A DNA stretch of 64,000 nucleotides, from positions 1 through 64,000 of the forward strand of contig NZ_LZZS01000019.1 in assembly GCF_014170335.1 (NCBI RefSeq). Reading direction: 5' to 3'. The DNA comes from Achromobacter sp. UMC46. GTDB taxonomy: Bacteria; Pseudomonadota; Gammaproteobacteria; Burkholderiales; Burkholderiaceae_B. The notes below the pieces were generated by a model. The model did no database searches. It was given only the letters and a program-made list of their open reading frames with translations, and was not told the origin of the DNA. Position numbers and translations under genes: made by a program. Position 1 is the stretch's first letter, and each line of letters begins with the position of its first letter. This document shows, piece by piece, positions 11,685-17,495 of the stretch.

Positions 11685-11753
11685 TCTGTATCCTCGTCTA
11701 CCTGAATCCCAGGGGATGGGGATGTTTTGCCGACGAGGCAACCTGCACTATCT

Positions 11754-11993
11754 ATGCATACCGAGCAAGAACTCCACACCAAGATCGGCGAGATCGTCGA
11801 GTCGATCGTCATGAAGAAAGTCACCCCCGATACGCAGTTGATTGCCACTGGCCTGGTTGATTCCCTGGCTGCGGTGGACATCACGCTGGCGGTCGAGTCG
11901 GAGTACGGATGCAGCATCCCGGCTCCCGAGATCGCCGAGCACCTTCAGTCGGTCCGCACGCTTGCCGGCTATGTCGCTGCCCATACTTCGTAA
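11754..11993 (+). CDS. dltC: D-alanyl carrier protein
   Basis: A 79-residue acyl-carrier-fold protein that receives D-alanine from DltA on a phosphopantetheine arm. The attachment serine is Ser37 in GLVDSLAAVDI; the surrounding LVDSL differs from fatty-acid ACP (GADSL/LDTVE) and fits peptidyl or D-alanyl carriers. I chose the ATG at 11754, giving a length equal to DltC (about 78). It is first of five genes on the plus strand; dltD starts inside its 3' end, implying translational coupling. Identity as DltC rests on the domain together with dltD, X, B and A next to it. Bordetella pertussis has a related 'dra' locus. Confidence 0.88.
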   Translation: MHTEQELHTKIGEIVESIVMKKVTPDTQLIATGLVDSLAAVDITLAVESEYGCSIPAPEIAEHLQSVRTLAGYVAAHTS

Positions 11994-13158
11994 TACGCAG
12001 TTGTGGTCCCATGTCGCGGCCGCCGCGACCGCCGTGGCACTGGCGTTCGGGGCGTATTGCGGCGCGGATGACTTGCTCAGCCGCCTCGTGACGCCGTTGC
12101 CGGCGCCGGCAACGGCCGCTGCCGACAAGAGCAACTATCTGCCCAATCTGGGGCCGGACTGGGGCACGCAGCACGTCAACCTGAATCGCCTGGGCAACGC
12201 CCTGAGCGACGGCACGCTGGTGGTGCTGGGGTCGTCCGAGCTGTCCAGCCATGACCTGCGCTTCGTGCCCTACCGCTTTTTCCCGGAAGAACTGAAGGTG
12301 CCGACGCTGGCCTATGGCCACGCCATGTTCCAGTCCTACGGCATCGTCAGCGTGCTGGAATCCGTGGCGGATTCGCTGACGCCGAACACGCGGCTGGTGA
12401 TCATGGTGTCGCCCGCCTGGTTCGCCTCGGGCGGCCAGCTGCCGCGCAGCGCGTTCGCCGAGCACGTGACGGGCCCGGTCTGGGATCGCCTCTGGGACCA
12501 GCCGAACACCCGCGAGCAGATGCAGAACTGGATCAGCGACAACGCCAACTGGGGCCTGTTGTGGCTGATCGCCAATGGCCAGGTGGCCGAACTCAAGGAC
12601 AAGCTGGCGCTGTGGTGGCACGCCCGCAAAGAGCCCGCGCCCGATCGGCCGCGCAGCAAGCTGTCGGTGCCGGCGCACCGTTTCGTGTCCTGGCCGTCAT
12701 CCGCCCGCCTGAACGAAGGGCAGTGGGGCAGGCTGACGCATCAGGCGCGCGAAGTCGAACGCGACCTGGGCGGCAACAACCCCTACGACGTCCGCGACGA
12801 CTACTACAAGCAGTACCTGGCGCCGTTGTATTCGCCGGCGCGCAACGAGTTCGCCGACGTGGACCCGATCACCCGCACTGAACTGGGTGACCTGTCGCGC
12901 GTGATGGCCTTGCTGCAAAGGCGCAAGGTGAAGGCGTATTTCGTCATTCAGCCGTTCAATCCCAAGCTCATCCTGGACGTCGAGCGATTCGATCCGGTGG
13001 TGGCTGCCATTACGGGCATGTGCCAGCGGTATCAGATGGGTTGCCTGGATCTCTACAGCATCCCGTTCGAACCCGGCATGGTGCGCGACGACATGCATCT
13101 GGCCGAGCTCGGCTGGGCGATGGCGGACCAAGGCATTGCGGAGTATTTTTCCCGATGA
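11971..13158 (+). CDS. dltD: D-alanyl transfer protein DltD
   Basis: A 395-residue membrane-anchored, extracytoplasmic SGNH-like hydrolase/transferase. An N-terminal helix (about residues 10-30) anchors it. The nucleophile region VVLGSSELSSHDLRF is near residue 90, YGHAMFQSYG follows, and the C-terminal catalytic pair is in DDMHLAELGW near residue 375. In Gram-positive bacteria DltD passes D-alanine from the membrane complex to lipoteichoic acid. The start at 11971 overlaps dltC by 23 bp and gives a proper anchor. The stop codon overlaps the dltX start (ATGA). The acceptor in this organism is unknown, since teichoic acid is not expected. Confidence 0.9.
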   Translation: MSLPILRNTQLWSHVAAAATAVALAFGAYCGADDLLSRLVTPLPAPATAAADKSNYLPNLGPDWGTQHVNLNRLGNALSDGTLVVLGSSELSSHDLRFVPYRFFPEELKVPTLAYGHAMFQSYGIVSVLESVADSLTPNTRLVIMVSPAWFASGGQLPRSAFAEHVTGPVWDRLWDQPNTREQMQNWISDNANWGLLWLIANGQVAELKDKLALWWHARKEPAPDRPRSKLSVPAHRFVSWPSSARLNEGQWGRLTHQAREVERDLGGNNPYDVRDDYYKQYLAPLYSPARNEFADVDPITRTELGDLSRVMALLQRRKVKAYFVIQPFNPKLILDVERFDPVVAAITGMCQRYQMGCLDLYSIPFEPGMVRDDMHLAELGWAMADQGIAEYFSR

Positions 13159-13307
13159 AATTTTTTCGCAAAGAGGGCGCCGGGCGCCGTTTCTTCTGGC
13201 ACTTGTGCCTGTACATCGGGGTGATCCTGGTGTTCGTGCTTCAGGCGCAGCCCACCACGGGCAGCGGCGGACCGATCAAGGTCGAATTCCAGTATCAGCA
13301 GTTCTGA
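13155..13307 (+). CDS. dltX: DltX-like small D-alanylation membrane protein
   Basis: A 50-residue protein: a basic, aromatic N-terminus (MKFFRKEGAGRRFFWHLC), one transmembrane helix (about residues 14-30), a short extracytoplasmic linker and the C-terminus V-E-F45-Q-Y47-Q-Q-F50. Gram-positive DltX proteins have the same size, topology and a terminal FIYNEF-type motif whose tyrosine carries D-alanine between DltB and DltD. The F-x-Y-x-x-F spacing is kept here. The ATG overlaps the dltD stop by four bases, and dltB starts 8 bp after its end. Longer in-frame starts would run into dltD and lack family sense. It is easily missed by automatic annotation because of its size. Confidence 0.85.
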   Translation: MKFFRKEGAGRRFFWHLCLYIGVILVFVLQAQPTTGSGGPIKVEFQYQQF

Positions 13308-13314
13308 GCACGCC

Positions 13315-14442
13315 ATGGAACTGTTCGCAAGCTTGAGCTTTTTCGGCGGGGCCCTGTTCGGGGGCCTTGGCCTGTTGGCATACCGCTCCTTCGGCATGCC
13401 GTTCCGTATCGGCTATCGCCACATCATCGGCGTGGTCTGCCTGGGCGTGTGGATGGCGGTGTTCTGGGCGCGTCCCTATCAGCCCATCGCGCTGCTGGCC
13501 ATTTCGGGCAGTGCGCTGTGGGCCATGCGCCGCAACTACATCCCCACCTGGCTTGCCGTCGTCATCACGATGACGCCGCTGCTGCTGGTGAAGACGGGCG
13601 CGTCGCATCTTGGCGCCATGCTCGGGCTGTCGTTCGCGACCTTCCGCGCCATCGACGTGCTGCTGTTCGCGCAGCGCAACGAACGCGTGTCGCCGCTGGA
13701 CTACTTCATCTACCTGTTCTTCCCGCTGACGCTGCTGGCCGGCCCGATGTACCGCTGGCGCAATTTCCAGGCGGACCTGAAGCGCGGCTACGAAGGCGTG
13801 AACCTGAGCACCTGGCTGACCGGCCTGGAACTCATCATGCTGGGCGTCATCCAGAAATTCGGCCTGGCTGAACTGATCTGGCGCTACGGCCTGTCCACGC
13901 TGGACGCGCACGACTATTCGTTCACGGGCGTGGCGCTGAACGCGTCGCTCTACAGCGCCTACCTGTTCTTCGACTTCGCCGGCTATTCGACGATGGCGAT
14001 CGGCATCGGCATGCTGTTCGGCTTCACGCTGCCGATCAACTTCCGCAATCCGCTGGCCACGCTGAATCCGCAGGACTTCTGGCGCCGCTGGCACATCAGC
14101 CTGTCGGAGTGGCTGCGCGACGTGGTGTTCATGCCGATCTACAAGGCGTTGAGCAAGACCAAATTCTTCGGCCGCCACCGCATGGCGGCGCAGAACATCG
14201 GCATTTTCGCGACGCTGCTGGCCATGGGCGTGTGGAACGGCCTGTCGCTACATTACATCGTCAGCGGCCTGATGTTCGGCGCGTATTCGGTGGGCCACAA
14301 CCTGCTGATCAACGCCTCGCGCACCCGCCCCGCCATGCAGGCCGCCCTGGCGCAGCCCGTCATGCGCTTCCTGGGCCGCGTGCTTACCTTGATCCTGGCC
14401 GCGTTGGCGCTGTACGTGTTCAGCGGCCGCAGCCCCATCTGA
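13315..14442 (+). CDS. dltB: D-alanyl transferase DltB (MBOAT family)
   Basis: A 375-residue polytopic membrane O-acyltransferase. Hallmarks are LLAGPMYRWRNFQADLK near residue 145, FFDFAGYSTMAIGIGMLFGF near 220-240, the MBOAT core NPQDFWRRWHISLSEWLRD near 245-265, and the invariant active-site histidine 313 in NGLSLHYIVSG. DltB forms a tunnel through the inner membrane and takes the D-alanyl group from DltC on the cytoplasmic face. It sits between dltX and dltA. The Dlt identity over alginate-type MBOATs is supported by the neighbours and by the short length. Confidence 0.92.
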   Translation: MELFASLSFFGGALFGGLGLLAYRSFGMPFRIGYRHIIGVVCLGVWMAVFWARPYQPIALLAISGSALWAMRRNYIPTWLAVVITMTPLLLVKTGASHLGAMLGLSFATFRAIDVLLFAQRNERVSPLDYFIYLFFPLTLLAGPMYRWRNFQADLKRGYEGVNLSTWLTGLELIMLGVIQKFGLAELIWRYGLSTLDAHDYSFTGVALNASLYSAYLFFDFAGYSTMAIGIGMLFGFTLPINFRNPLATLNPQDFWRRWHISLSEWLRDVVFMPIYKALSKTKFFGRHRMAAQNIGIFATLLAMGVWNGLSLHYIVSGLMFGAYSVGHNLLINASRTRPAMQAALAQPVMRFLGRVLTLILAALALYVFSGRSPI

Positions 14443-14458: not shown

Positions 14459-15907
14459 ATGCGTTTCGACCTGAAGTCTTTCCAATTCGTCGACACCGGC
14501 GTGGCGCCCGACGCGCTGGCCGTCGCCGCCGCGGATCGCAACCTCACCTGGGCGCAGTTGCGCTCGGAAGCCGTCGCCTGGGCCGACGAGGCCCGCGGCA
14601 ACGGCGCGGCGCCGGATGTGCCGGTGGCGATCTACGGCCATAAGGAAGCGTCGTTCTTCGTCGCGATGGTCGGCGCCTTGCTGATCGGCGCGCCGTTCGT
14701 GCCGGTGGACACCATCTACCCGGCCGAACGCCTGCGCCGCATCGTCGAGATCGTCCGCGCGGCCGCCGTCTACGACGCCGCGTCCGGCACGTTCAGCGCG
14801 GGCGAAGGCGCCGAACTGGCCGAGCGCGGCCTGGCCTATGTCATGTTCACGTCCGGCAGCACGGGCGACCCGAAGGGCGTGCAGATCGGCCGCGAAAGCG
14901 TCGGCCTGCTGGGCGACTGGATGCTGGGCAGCTTCGGCTTGGGCGACGCGCCGGTGTTCATGAACCAGGCGCCGTTCAGTTTCGATCTGTCCATGTACGA
15001 AGTGTTCGCCACCTTGGCCTCGGGCGGCGCCTGCGTGCTGAACGCGCGCGAGCAGATCGCGGCCGCGGGCACGTGGATGCCGCGTCTGGCCGGGCACGGC
15101 GTGACGGTCTGGGTGTCGACCCCGTCGTTCGCGCATCAGCAATTGGCCAACCGCGATTTCTCGCCGGCCACCTTGCCCGCGCTGCGCACCTTCCTGTTCT
15201 GCGGCGAGCCGCTGCCTTCGGCCTTGGCGAAGAAGCTGCGCCAGCGCTTTCCCGGCGCCGTCATCCTGAATACCTACGGCCCGACGGAAGCCACGGTCGC
15301 GACCACCTGGATCGAAGTCACCGATGCCGTCCTGGCCGCGCATGACCCGCTGCCGGTGGGGCACGCCAAACCCGACAGCGTGCTGATCGTGGACGAAGGC
15401 GAGATCTGCATCGTGGGCGACCACGTCATGCGGGGCTACCTGAACCGTCCCGACCTGAACGAGGCCAAGCTCTACACCTACGCCGACGGCCGCCGCGCGT
15501 TCCGCACGGGCGACCTGGGGCAGATGGAAGCCGGAGGCCTGCTGTTCTGCCGCGGCCGCATGGATGACCAGATCAAGCTGAACGGCTATCGAATCGAACT
15601 GGCCGAGATCGACGAGGCCCTGCATGGCCTGCCGGGCGTGGAGGGCGGCGCATGCGCGGTCCTGCGGCGGCCGGACGGGACGGCGGTGCGTCTGATTGGT
15701 TTCGTGGCGGGGGCGGGCGACGCGTCAGAGGACGCGCGCTTCCTGGCGCCTGATGCGCTGGCCGGATGGAAAGAGCGGCTGGCGCAGCGCCTGCCGCCCT
15801 ACATGGTGCCGTCCGAGCTGGTCGCTTGCCCGACGCTGCCGATGTCGAACAACCACAAGATCGACCGCAAGAAGCTGGTCGAGATCTACGCCGGCATCCC
15901 GGCGTAG
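14459..15907 (+). CDS. dltA: D-alanine:D-alanyl carrier protein ligase
   Basis: A 482-residue adenylation enzyme that activates D-alanine with ATP and loads it on DltC. It shows the adenylation core motifs in order: MFTSGSTGDPKGV near residues 127-139, SFDLSMYEVF near 178, NTYGPTEATVATTW near 271-284, FRTGDLG near 347, and the C-terminal lysine in NNHKIDRKKL near 468. Length is close to Gram-positive DltA (about 500). A GGGAG ribosome binding site precedes the ATG. It is last in the operon, unlike Gram-positive operons where dltA comes first. A convergent hairpin follows at 15920-15938. Confidence 0.93.
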   Translation: MRFDLKSFQFVDTGVAPDALAVAAADRNLTWAQLRSEAVAWADEARGNGAAPDVPVAIYGHKEASFFVAMVGALLIGAPFVPVDTIYPAERLRRIVEIVRAAAVYDAASGTFSAGEGAELAERGLAYVMFTSGSTGDPKGVQIGRESVGLLGDWMLGSFGLGDAPVFMNQAPFSFDLSMYEVFATLASGGACVLNAREQIAAAGTWMPRLAGHGVTVWVSTPSFAHQQLANRDFSPATLPALRTFLFCGEPLPSALAKKLRQRFPGAVILNTYGPTEATVATTWIEVTDAVLAAHDPLPVGHAKPDSVLIVDEGEICIVGDHVMRGYLNRPDLNEAKLYTYADGRRAFRTGDLGQMEAGGLLFCRGRMDDQIKLNGYRIELAEIDEALHGLPGVEGGACAVLRRPDGTAVRLIGFVAGAGDASEDARFLAPDALAGWKERLAQRLPPYMVPSELVACPTLPMSNNHKIDRKKLVEIYAGIPA

Positions 15908-16634: not shown

Positions 16635-17345
16635 TTACGGACGGCCACCCGTCGGGAACGGCCACGACGCGGCGGGGTTCAGCGCGGTCTTCGCGCCCGG
16701 GGCAGCTGCCGTCGACGACGGAGGCGTAGCGGGCTTCTTCGGAGCGGCTTTCTTGGCAGCAGGCTTCTTGGCAGCGGCGGGCTTGGCAGCAGCAGCCGGC
16801 TTGGCGGCAGCAGGAGCCTTCTTCGCAGCAGGAGCCTTCTTGGCAGCGGGAGCCTTCTTGGCTACGGCCTTCTTGGCAACCGCCTTCTTGGCAGCAGGCG
16901 CCTTTTTGGCAGCGGCCTTTTTGGCGGGGGCCTTCTTGGCTACCGCTTTCTTGGCAACAGCCTTCTTGGCAACCGCCTTCTTGGCGACAACCTTCTTGGC
17001 TACCGCTTTCTTGGCGACGGCCTTCTTGGCAACCGCCTTCTTGGCGACGACCTTCTTGGCTACTGCCTTCTTGGCAACCGCCTTCTTGGCGACAACCTTC
17101 TTGGCTACCGCTTTCTTGGCGACGGCCTTCTTGGCTACCGCTTTTTTGGCGACGACCTTCTTGGCTGCCGGCTTCTTGGCGGCAACCTTCTTCACAGCCG
17201 GCTTCTTGGCGGCTGCGACTTTCTTGACTGCTACCTTCTTGACAGCGGCTTTCTTGGCCGGGGCGGCCTTTTTAGCGACTGCCTTCTTGGCGGCGGCGGG
17301 CTTCTTCACCGCTGCTTTCTTTACGGCTTTCTTGGCTGTTGCCAT
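16635..17345 (-). CDS. Histone H1-like lysine/alanine-rich DNA-binding protein
   Basis: A 236-residue, very basic protein made almost wholly of Lys-Lys-Ala/Val/Pro pentapeptide units ([15 protein letters not shown]), with a short non-repetitive tail (residues about 205-236). It resembles the C-terminal domain of eukaryotic histone H1 and the BpH1 protein of Bordetella pertussis, a nucleoid protein whose length varies between strains. Two starts compete: AAGGAG lies seven bases before ATG 17345 but only one base before ATG 17351, so 17345 is preferred. Codons alternate (GCC/GCG/GTT/GTC), so the DNA repeat is less perfect than the peptide repeat. Confidence 0.9.
16925..17170 (-). repeat. 15-bp tandem codon repeat array inside the H1-like gene
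   Basis: About sixteen consecutive 15-bp units, each encoding a KKAVA- or KKVVA-type pentapeptide, with KKVVA returning every three or four units. This gives a higher-order period of 45-60 bp. The array is prone to slippage and recombination and should vary in copy number between strains. Confidence 0.8.
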
Positions 17346-17495
17346 GGTCATGCTCCTTAGGTTCAGGGGTCCCAGAACTTAAACCCGTGCCCCGACTCGC
17401 CAACAAGGCGAACCGTGCCCGGGCTATTCATCGGCGCATGCCGCTGTTCTGTGCGAGCAACAGCTACTACGGTTTGCGCTAATGAATTCGGCACA

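Follow-up and report, generated by a model that had tools for sequence, protein, structure and literature searches.

A Gram-negative counterpart of DltX that is missed by family models and accompanied by an unusual DltB

RESULTS

A small gene between dltD and dltB

In the current study, we analyzed a 64,000-nucleotide stretch of Achromobacter sp. UMC46 (contig NZ_LZZS01000019.1, positions 1 to 64,000 of the forward strand; here called the window), focusing on a small DltX-like gene that lies between dltD and dltB in an operon of the Dlt (dra) type. The 50-codon frame, read from the window at positions 13155 to 13307 of the forward strand, encodes MKFFRKEGAGRRFFWHLCLYIGVILVFVLQAQPTTGSGGPIKVEFQYQQF, followed by a stop codon. 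Its ATG at 13155 and the dltD stop codon (TGA, 13156 to 13158) overlap as ATGA, and 7 bp (13308 to 13314) separate its own stop from the dltB ATG at 13315. The protein ends in the hexapeptide F45-Q46-Y47-Q48-Q49-F50 (13287 to 13304, forward strand), within which the Tyr47 codon occupies 13293 to 13295. The frame, its two junctions, and its terminal motif had been called in a first-pass annotation of the window, and all were confirmed, as was its proposal of a single transmembrane (TM) helix: the top hydrophobic 19-residue stretch begins at residue 13 (mean Kyte-Doolittle value, 2.12), and an AlphaFold model built from an alignment of 22 loci plus the window (loci L184 and L185 excluded) contains one helix, at residues 10 to 30, with low confidence (mean predicted local distance difference test [pLDDT] score, 69). 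The net charge is +4 ahead of the hydrophobic stretch and 0 behind it, and the predicted topology is N-in/C-out. In its length, its one TM helix, its positively charged N terminus, its C-terminal F-x-Y-x-x-F with an invariant Tyr, and its encoding together with dltA to dltD, the protein resembles a DltX (ca. 50 residues).

Conservation, selection, and co-occurrence

The 50-residue frame is a true gene. When the best 80 of 425 DltB relatives were taken as named loci, a DltX-like frame with an invariant Tyr was present upstream of dltB in every one (79 detected by script and one, L184, read by eye). The ends follow the pattern [FY][EQ]YQ[QK]F, with FEYQKF in 33 loci, FQYQQF in 32, YEYQQF in 7, and FEYQQF in 7; L184, read correctly, adds another YEYQQF and brings the first residue of the motif to F in 72 and Y in 8. 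Taking the start codon nearest the dltD stop, and leaving L184 out of the count, we found that the dltX start overlaps that stop in 77/79 loci, by four bases in 51 and by one base in 26. The N terminus is variable, the protein being ca. 41 to 69 residues long according to the start chosen. The 80 loci come from the Alcaligenaceae and the Enterobacterales, plus one record titled Chryseobacterium; they include Achromobacter, Bordetella, Schauerella, Paralcaligenes, and Candidimonas and then Pectobacterium, Dickeya, Enterobacter, Kosakonia, Buttiauxella, Photorhabdus, Serratia, and others. A quick tree gave three groups, each on one side of a branch and with no indication of which two are nearest to each other, and placed the sequences of the Chryseobacterium record with those of enterobacteria.

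The first-pass annotation had expected a synonymous bias with the Tyr and terminal Phe conserved, and this is what we observed. For 33 Achromobacter, Bordetella, and Schauerella sequences, the ratio of nonsynonymous to synonymous substitution rates (dN/dS) was 0.072 across the 40 core codons; it was 0.104 over the first 27 of these, and over the last 13, dN was 0 and dS was 0.42. In the same sequences, stops interrupted the +1 frame in 31/33 and the +2 frame in only 7/33. Enterobacterial dltX genes gave a dN/dS of 0.135 (40 sequences, with L171, L184, and L188 [Photorhabdus] excluded and L185 and L156 included), and the Tyr codon was TAC or TAT in the Achromobacter/Bordetella/Schauerella and enterobacterial groups alike. 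The outcomes named beforehand as refutations, namely, a missing frame, internal stops, or an unconserved Tyr, were encountered in none of the 80 named loci. Two cases of decay were seen. L185 ("Candidatus Symbiopectobacterium"), one of the 80, keeps the DltX core, and its usual ATG frame stops short of that core; a further, degraded enterobacterial genome that is 49% complete (G968, C1:4057959-4059188) carries a DltB with four in-frame stops and a partial DltX match (model positions 8 to 41).

DltX also occurs together with its presumptive partners. In a sample of 200 genomes of the family, searched at E value thresholds of 1e-30 for DltB, 1e-15 for DltD, and 0.01 for DltX (alignment A2), the three proteins were found in the identical 24 genomes, and none of the three was found in the other 176 at those thresholds. 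The dltX frame lay 5 to 30 bp upstream of dltB in all 24 DltB loci, a set that has genomes in common with the 80 named loci. Similarly, among 149 enterobacterial genomes, DltB was present in 11 and DltX in the same 11, the degraded G968 among them; a twelfth DltX match (E = 0.003) covered 20 residues and did not reach the motif. In a class-level sample of 369 genomes, 53 other genomes matched DltB, at scores such as fused MBOATs give (best E value, 2e-32).

The gene order is C-D-X-B-A in the window, D-X-B-A in five enterobacterial loci, and D-X-B-A-C on two plasmids, from Klebsiella electrica (L103) and Enterobacter cloacae (L104). Both plasmid operons have transposase genes on both sides, and the E. 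cloacae plasmid was typed as conjugative. The plasmid copies of DltX are annotated as "hypothetical protein" (WP_255423173.1), and the earlier suggestion that the gene is probably unannotated was only partly right.

Searches with family models

The Firmicutes DltX model PF12459 did not match the window protein at an E value of 10 in a Pfam scan (the curated cutoff was not reached), nor did a six-frame search of the window's genome with that model return any match at E = 10. In control searches, 2/14 genomes (Bacillus subtilis and Lactococcus lactis) passed the cutoff. The protein had no match among NCBIfam models; its lone Pfam match, to PsbL (E = 0.39), is due to chance. A sequence search for a solved structure of a DltX relative found none, the two matches (best E, 0.79) being chance ones as well. 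In Niallia (L105), DltX was not found by a simple pattern search.

The active site of DltB

The adjoining dltB gene (13315 to 14442, forward strand) encodes a 375-residue member of the membrane-bound O-acyltransferase (MBOAT) family, which matches PF03062 at 9.4e-17 (61.7 bits against a cutoff of 27) and TIGR04091 at 2.1e-63, below the cutoff of the latter model. MBOAT catalysis is thought to use an invariant His plus an Asn, Asp, or His (PMC12979248); in the DltB of Streptococcus thermophilus, His336 is called invariant and His289 conserved (PMC11035591), and one exception, HHATL, which has Leu, has been named (PMC5831804). In our alignment with S. thermophilus DltB (residue numbers counted by hand, with a chain offset of 25), Asn308 of the window protein (codon 14236 to 14238, forward strand) stands at His336 and His260 (codon 14092 to 14094, forward strand) at His289. 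By this alignment, the DltB lacks the invariant His of TM6′ and keeps, on re-entrant loop 2, the other polar residue of MBOATs (Asn, Asp, or His). Both states are fixed: Asn308 and His260 were each found in 81/81 Gram-negative DltB proteins of the DltX type (in an alignment from which Niallia L105 is missing), and Asn308 was found again in 31/31 further loci that partly overlap the 81. Controls, in contrast, keep the His, in 9/9 Firmicutes DltB proteins (from plasmid records) and in 31/31 fused MBOATs (29 among the matches listed in the class search, plus L001 and L070).

Nearby, the equivalent of Tyr345 is Ser317 and that of the next conserved His is Phe321, and many core residues besides His260 are invariant. 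The AlphaFold model of DltB (mean pLDDT, 79.8; low confidence at residues 261 to 264; last helix at 348 to 369) places residue 260 at a helix end and residue 308 just past a helix. Since an Asn occupies the place of the invariant MBOAT His, the active site of this DltB must differ in its catalytic residues. From sequence, its funnel appears to be remodeled around a divergent hexapeptide; with Asn308 at the canonical position and His260 retained, His260 is most likely the base, in what would be an inverted His/Asn pair.

Window DltB has neither the C-terminal extension nor the hexapeptide typical of fused MBOATs. We considered whether DltB itself might carry the hexapeptide, and this was rejected: the DltB tail ends without the motif in 80/80 loci. 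Because 30/31 fused MBOAT frames do end in a hexapeptide, one supplied in trans is to be expected in the DltX-type systems.

A second dltD-dltX pair and a third module

A second dltD-dltX pair lies on contig 33 (7359 to 8622, reverse strand) of the genome that contains the window, a 6.68-Mb assembly in 42 contigs; we found no MBOAT on contig 33. The second DltD (PF04914, 150 bits) is 43% identical to the first, both keep GSSE and D-x-x-H, and the second DltX (X2) ends in MEIEFQYSKF. Such a second DltD occurs in 11 genomes of the family sample, and X2 adjoins it in all 11. Nine of the 11 are Achromobacter, where X2 has a dN/dS of 0.073 and the pair is flanked by mogA and a pit-type phosphate transporter gene in 9/9; the other two are Bordetella, at 46 to 49% identity, and there we did not find the mogA and pit-type neighbors. 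A genus-wide count covering DltX and DltB gave one DltX-type DltB in 43/43 Achromobacter genomes and two DltX proteins in 38/43 (one of the five genomes with a single DltX is 57% complete). A second DltX-type DltB that might serve the second DltD was looked for and not found, there being one DltB match per genome at E = 1e-60 among these 43. In the window's genome, the only other MBOAT is a fused one. Given one DltB and two DltX-DltD pairs, the simplest reading of the gene content is that one donor MBOAT feeds two shuttle/transferase modules. It is a more tentative proposal, and one we hold to be distinctly less than even odds, that the relay is branched, with a single DltB (His260 as base, plus Asn308) loading two DltX proteins that each have their own DltD and pass D-alanine (D-Ala) to two different envelope acceptors.

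The fused MBOAT belongs to a third module, on contig 35 (5364 to 11477, forward strand), which comprises two AlgX-type SGNH genes, the fused MBOAT itself (ending in FLYFQF), a carrier protein, an AMP-binding ligase, and an AlgF-like gene. This MBOAT may use a carrier-protein donor. Related MBOATs were present in 17/41 genomes searched, the window's own included.

Neighboring genes

Upstream of the small gene lie dltC (11727 to 11993, forward strand), encoding the carrier protein (PP-binding, PF00550, 2e-08), in which an internal ATG is perhaps the true start, and dltD (11971 to 13158, forward strand), encoding an SGNH transferase (PF04914, 6.2e-59 on a longer frame). Downstream of dltB is dltA (14459 to 15907, forward strand), which encodes a D-Ala:carrier ligase-like protein with the motif FLFCGE (TIGR01734, 1.3e-114, below its cutoff). 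Across the 80 loci, this motif is FLFCGE in 39 and F[VI]FIGE, with Ile, in 40, and one locus gave no match; the comparison motif F[VLF]FCGE occurs in three of four Firmicutes DltA proteins, the fourth (L106) having been matched at the wrong stretch. The Cys of FLFCGE is associated with the choice of D-Ala, and a different substrate is possible for the DltA of the second (Ile, enterobacterial) set. Farther along the window (16635 to 17351, reverse strand) is a 238-residue Lys/Ala-rich repeat protein with KKAVAKK repeats, which we take to resemble a histone H1-like protein.

DISCUSSION

We consider it probable, at roughly 80%, that the DltX-like gene encodes the acyl-shuttle microprotein of the Gram-negative Dlt (dra) pathway, which would carry D-Ala on Tyr47 from DltB to DltD, and that the DltB it serves works with an altered active site. 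In this scheme, DltA would charge DltC with D-Ala, DltB would pass the D-Ala across the inner membrane to Tyr47 of the small protein, and Tyr47 would carry it on to DltD, the DltB step running with Asn308 where the canonical His would be and with His260 as the base. By analogy, the best reading is that the protein does what DltX does in Firmicutes and what the fused hexapeptide does in other bacterial MBOATs. The mechanism so invoked passes the acyl group from DltB to the DltX Tyr and on to DltD; PatA has the hexapeptide in fused form, and an acyl-Tyr was shown for Campylobacter jejuni PatA (PMC12148441). The first-pass annotation had proposed the same relay as that of Gram-positive bacteria. 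Its shuttle role survives as the best reading, whereas its sameness is not fully borne out, since the partner DltB lacks the invariant His and the DltB step must differ in its catalytic residues.

The strongest competing explanation, which we nonetheless regard as unlikely, is that the microprotein serves in assembly or as a bridge between DltB and DltD, with Tyr47 playing a structural part and D-Ala reaching DltD by some other route. Such a tether would also be consistent with the lone TM helix and with the presence of the protein in the genomes that have DltB and DltD, and a DltB that lacks its usual catalytic His would suit it. Against a tether, the predicted periplasmic end rather than the TM helix is the most conserved part of the protein (dN, 0 for the final 13 codons; dN/dS, 0.10 for the 27 before them), and in PatA, an acyl-Tyr has been published in the same motif (PMC12148441).

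Slightly less credible still is the possibility that DltB, its catalytic His replaced, is a scaffold or channel and no longer an acyltransferase, with D-Ala arriving at DltX or DltD in another way. The Asn in 81/81 DltB proteins fits this, as do reports that a His-to-Leu change abolished the phenotype of yeast Gup1 and that the activity of HHATL, with its Leu, is doubtful (PMC5831804). Yet the invariance of His260 and of many core residues is what an enzyme would show, and the survival of Dickeya dadantii under polymyxin needs dltB (PMC3544676), a dltB mutant being reported to suffer 99% mortality. Two Dickeya DltB proteins among our 80 (L160 and L172) are of the Asn type; taken with the D. 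dadantii phenotype, this suggests that the operon is functional despite the lost His. An open reading frame that arose by chance or acts as a leader might be argued from the shortness of the frame and from family models that match it no better than by chance, and this is refuted by its conservation in 80/80 loci, by dN/dS values of 0.07 and 0.14 in two lineages, and by the copy that sits beside the second dltD elsewhere in the genome.

Several points weigh against the shuttle as we have drawn it. When 13 Gram-negative rows were compared by hhalign with five DltX sequences from Firmicutes, the match was weak (probability, 8.5%; P = 0.004) and aligned the motifs with each other; this permits homology and does not demonstrate it, nor does the PF12459 profile establish homology to Firmicutes DltX. 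We infer the chemistry of the DltX/DltB relay, including the acyl-Tyr intermediate, the direction of transfer, and the role of His260. DltB has other conserved His residues, namely, His313 (His in 72/81 and Asn in 9) and His328 (81/81), the latter probably on the far side of the membrane. With the "invariant" MBOAT His lost, DltB could carry out a different reaction; the Asn in DltB of D. dadantii itself is presumed from its two congeners. The system is also rare, DltD being present in 7/398 genomes of a phylum-level sample (the window's own included, and one match below the cutoff). Calling the protein DltX, as the first-pass annotation did, is justified for a conserved, operon-linked counterpart with an invariant Tyr; as a statement of family membership it lacks full support, given the negative PF12459 search and the weak hhalign match. 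Its working analogy is clearer than its descent.

These findings supply the Gram-negative Dlt/dra pathway with a part that the Pfam and NCBIfam models we tried do not see, and because those models are blind to it, work on dra and dlt genes may have omitted the acyl carrier. Among the matches listed in a search of the open-licence literature, we found no Gram-negative DltX in print, and DltX is not mentioned in the passages considered here on the Bordetella pertussis dra and Dickeya dlt genes. The dra locus is given as BP2987 to BP2991 (PMC9858536), and its five locus tags may leave room for a small gene among them. DltB, in turn, is a naturally occurring MBOAT without the "invariant His," encoded in an operon type that has a reported resistance phenotype, which makes the identity of the base testable. 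The second DltD-DltX pair, with two transferases seemingly fed by one donor, provides a handle on the Gram-negative acceptor(s).

Among known systems, the B. pertussis dra locus and the Dickeya dlt genes are of the same operon type as that of the window. The former is reported to place D-Ala in the outer membrane and to raise peptide resistance (PMC4448142, PMC9858536), and dlt genes have been noted in a few Gram-negative bacteria, e.g., Dickeya (PMC5541007). With Firmicutes DltX (PF12459, DUF3687; dltXABCD operons), the Gram-negative protein shares a length of ca. 50 residues, one TM helix, a terminal F-x-Y-x-x-F that extends to the last residue, encoding alongside dltABCD, and a partner DltB that has no hexapeptide of its own. 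The two differ in the motif, which is FIYNEF in 5/5 Firmicutes sequences compared and [FY][EQ]Y[QS][QK]F here, and in gene position; Firmicutes dltX is upstream of dltA, while the Gram-negative gene lies between dltD and dltB and overlaps the dltD stop. Unlike its Firmicutes counterpart, the Gram-negative protein is not matched by PF12459, has a DltB partner with Asn for His, is joined by a second DltX in 38/43 Achromobacter genomes, and resides in hosts where teichoic acid is not expected. Such a relay without teichoic acid, which the first-pass annotation had stressed, is not new in itself, as an acyl-Tyr hexapeptide is already on record in a Gram-negative protein, PatA, whose MBOAT carries it in fused form (PMC12148441). 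Other MBOAT/SGNH pathways are said in that source to have no DltX-like microprotein. The fused systems (PatA-PatB and AlgI type) share the hexapeptide logic in Gram-negative bacteria; there the hexapeptide is part of the MBOAT, whereas here it belongs to a separate protein and the donor is a carrier protein.
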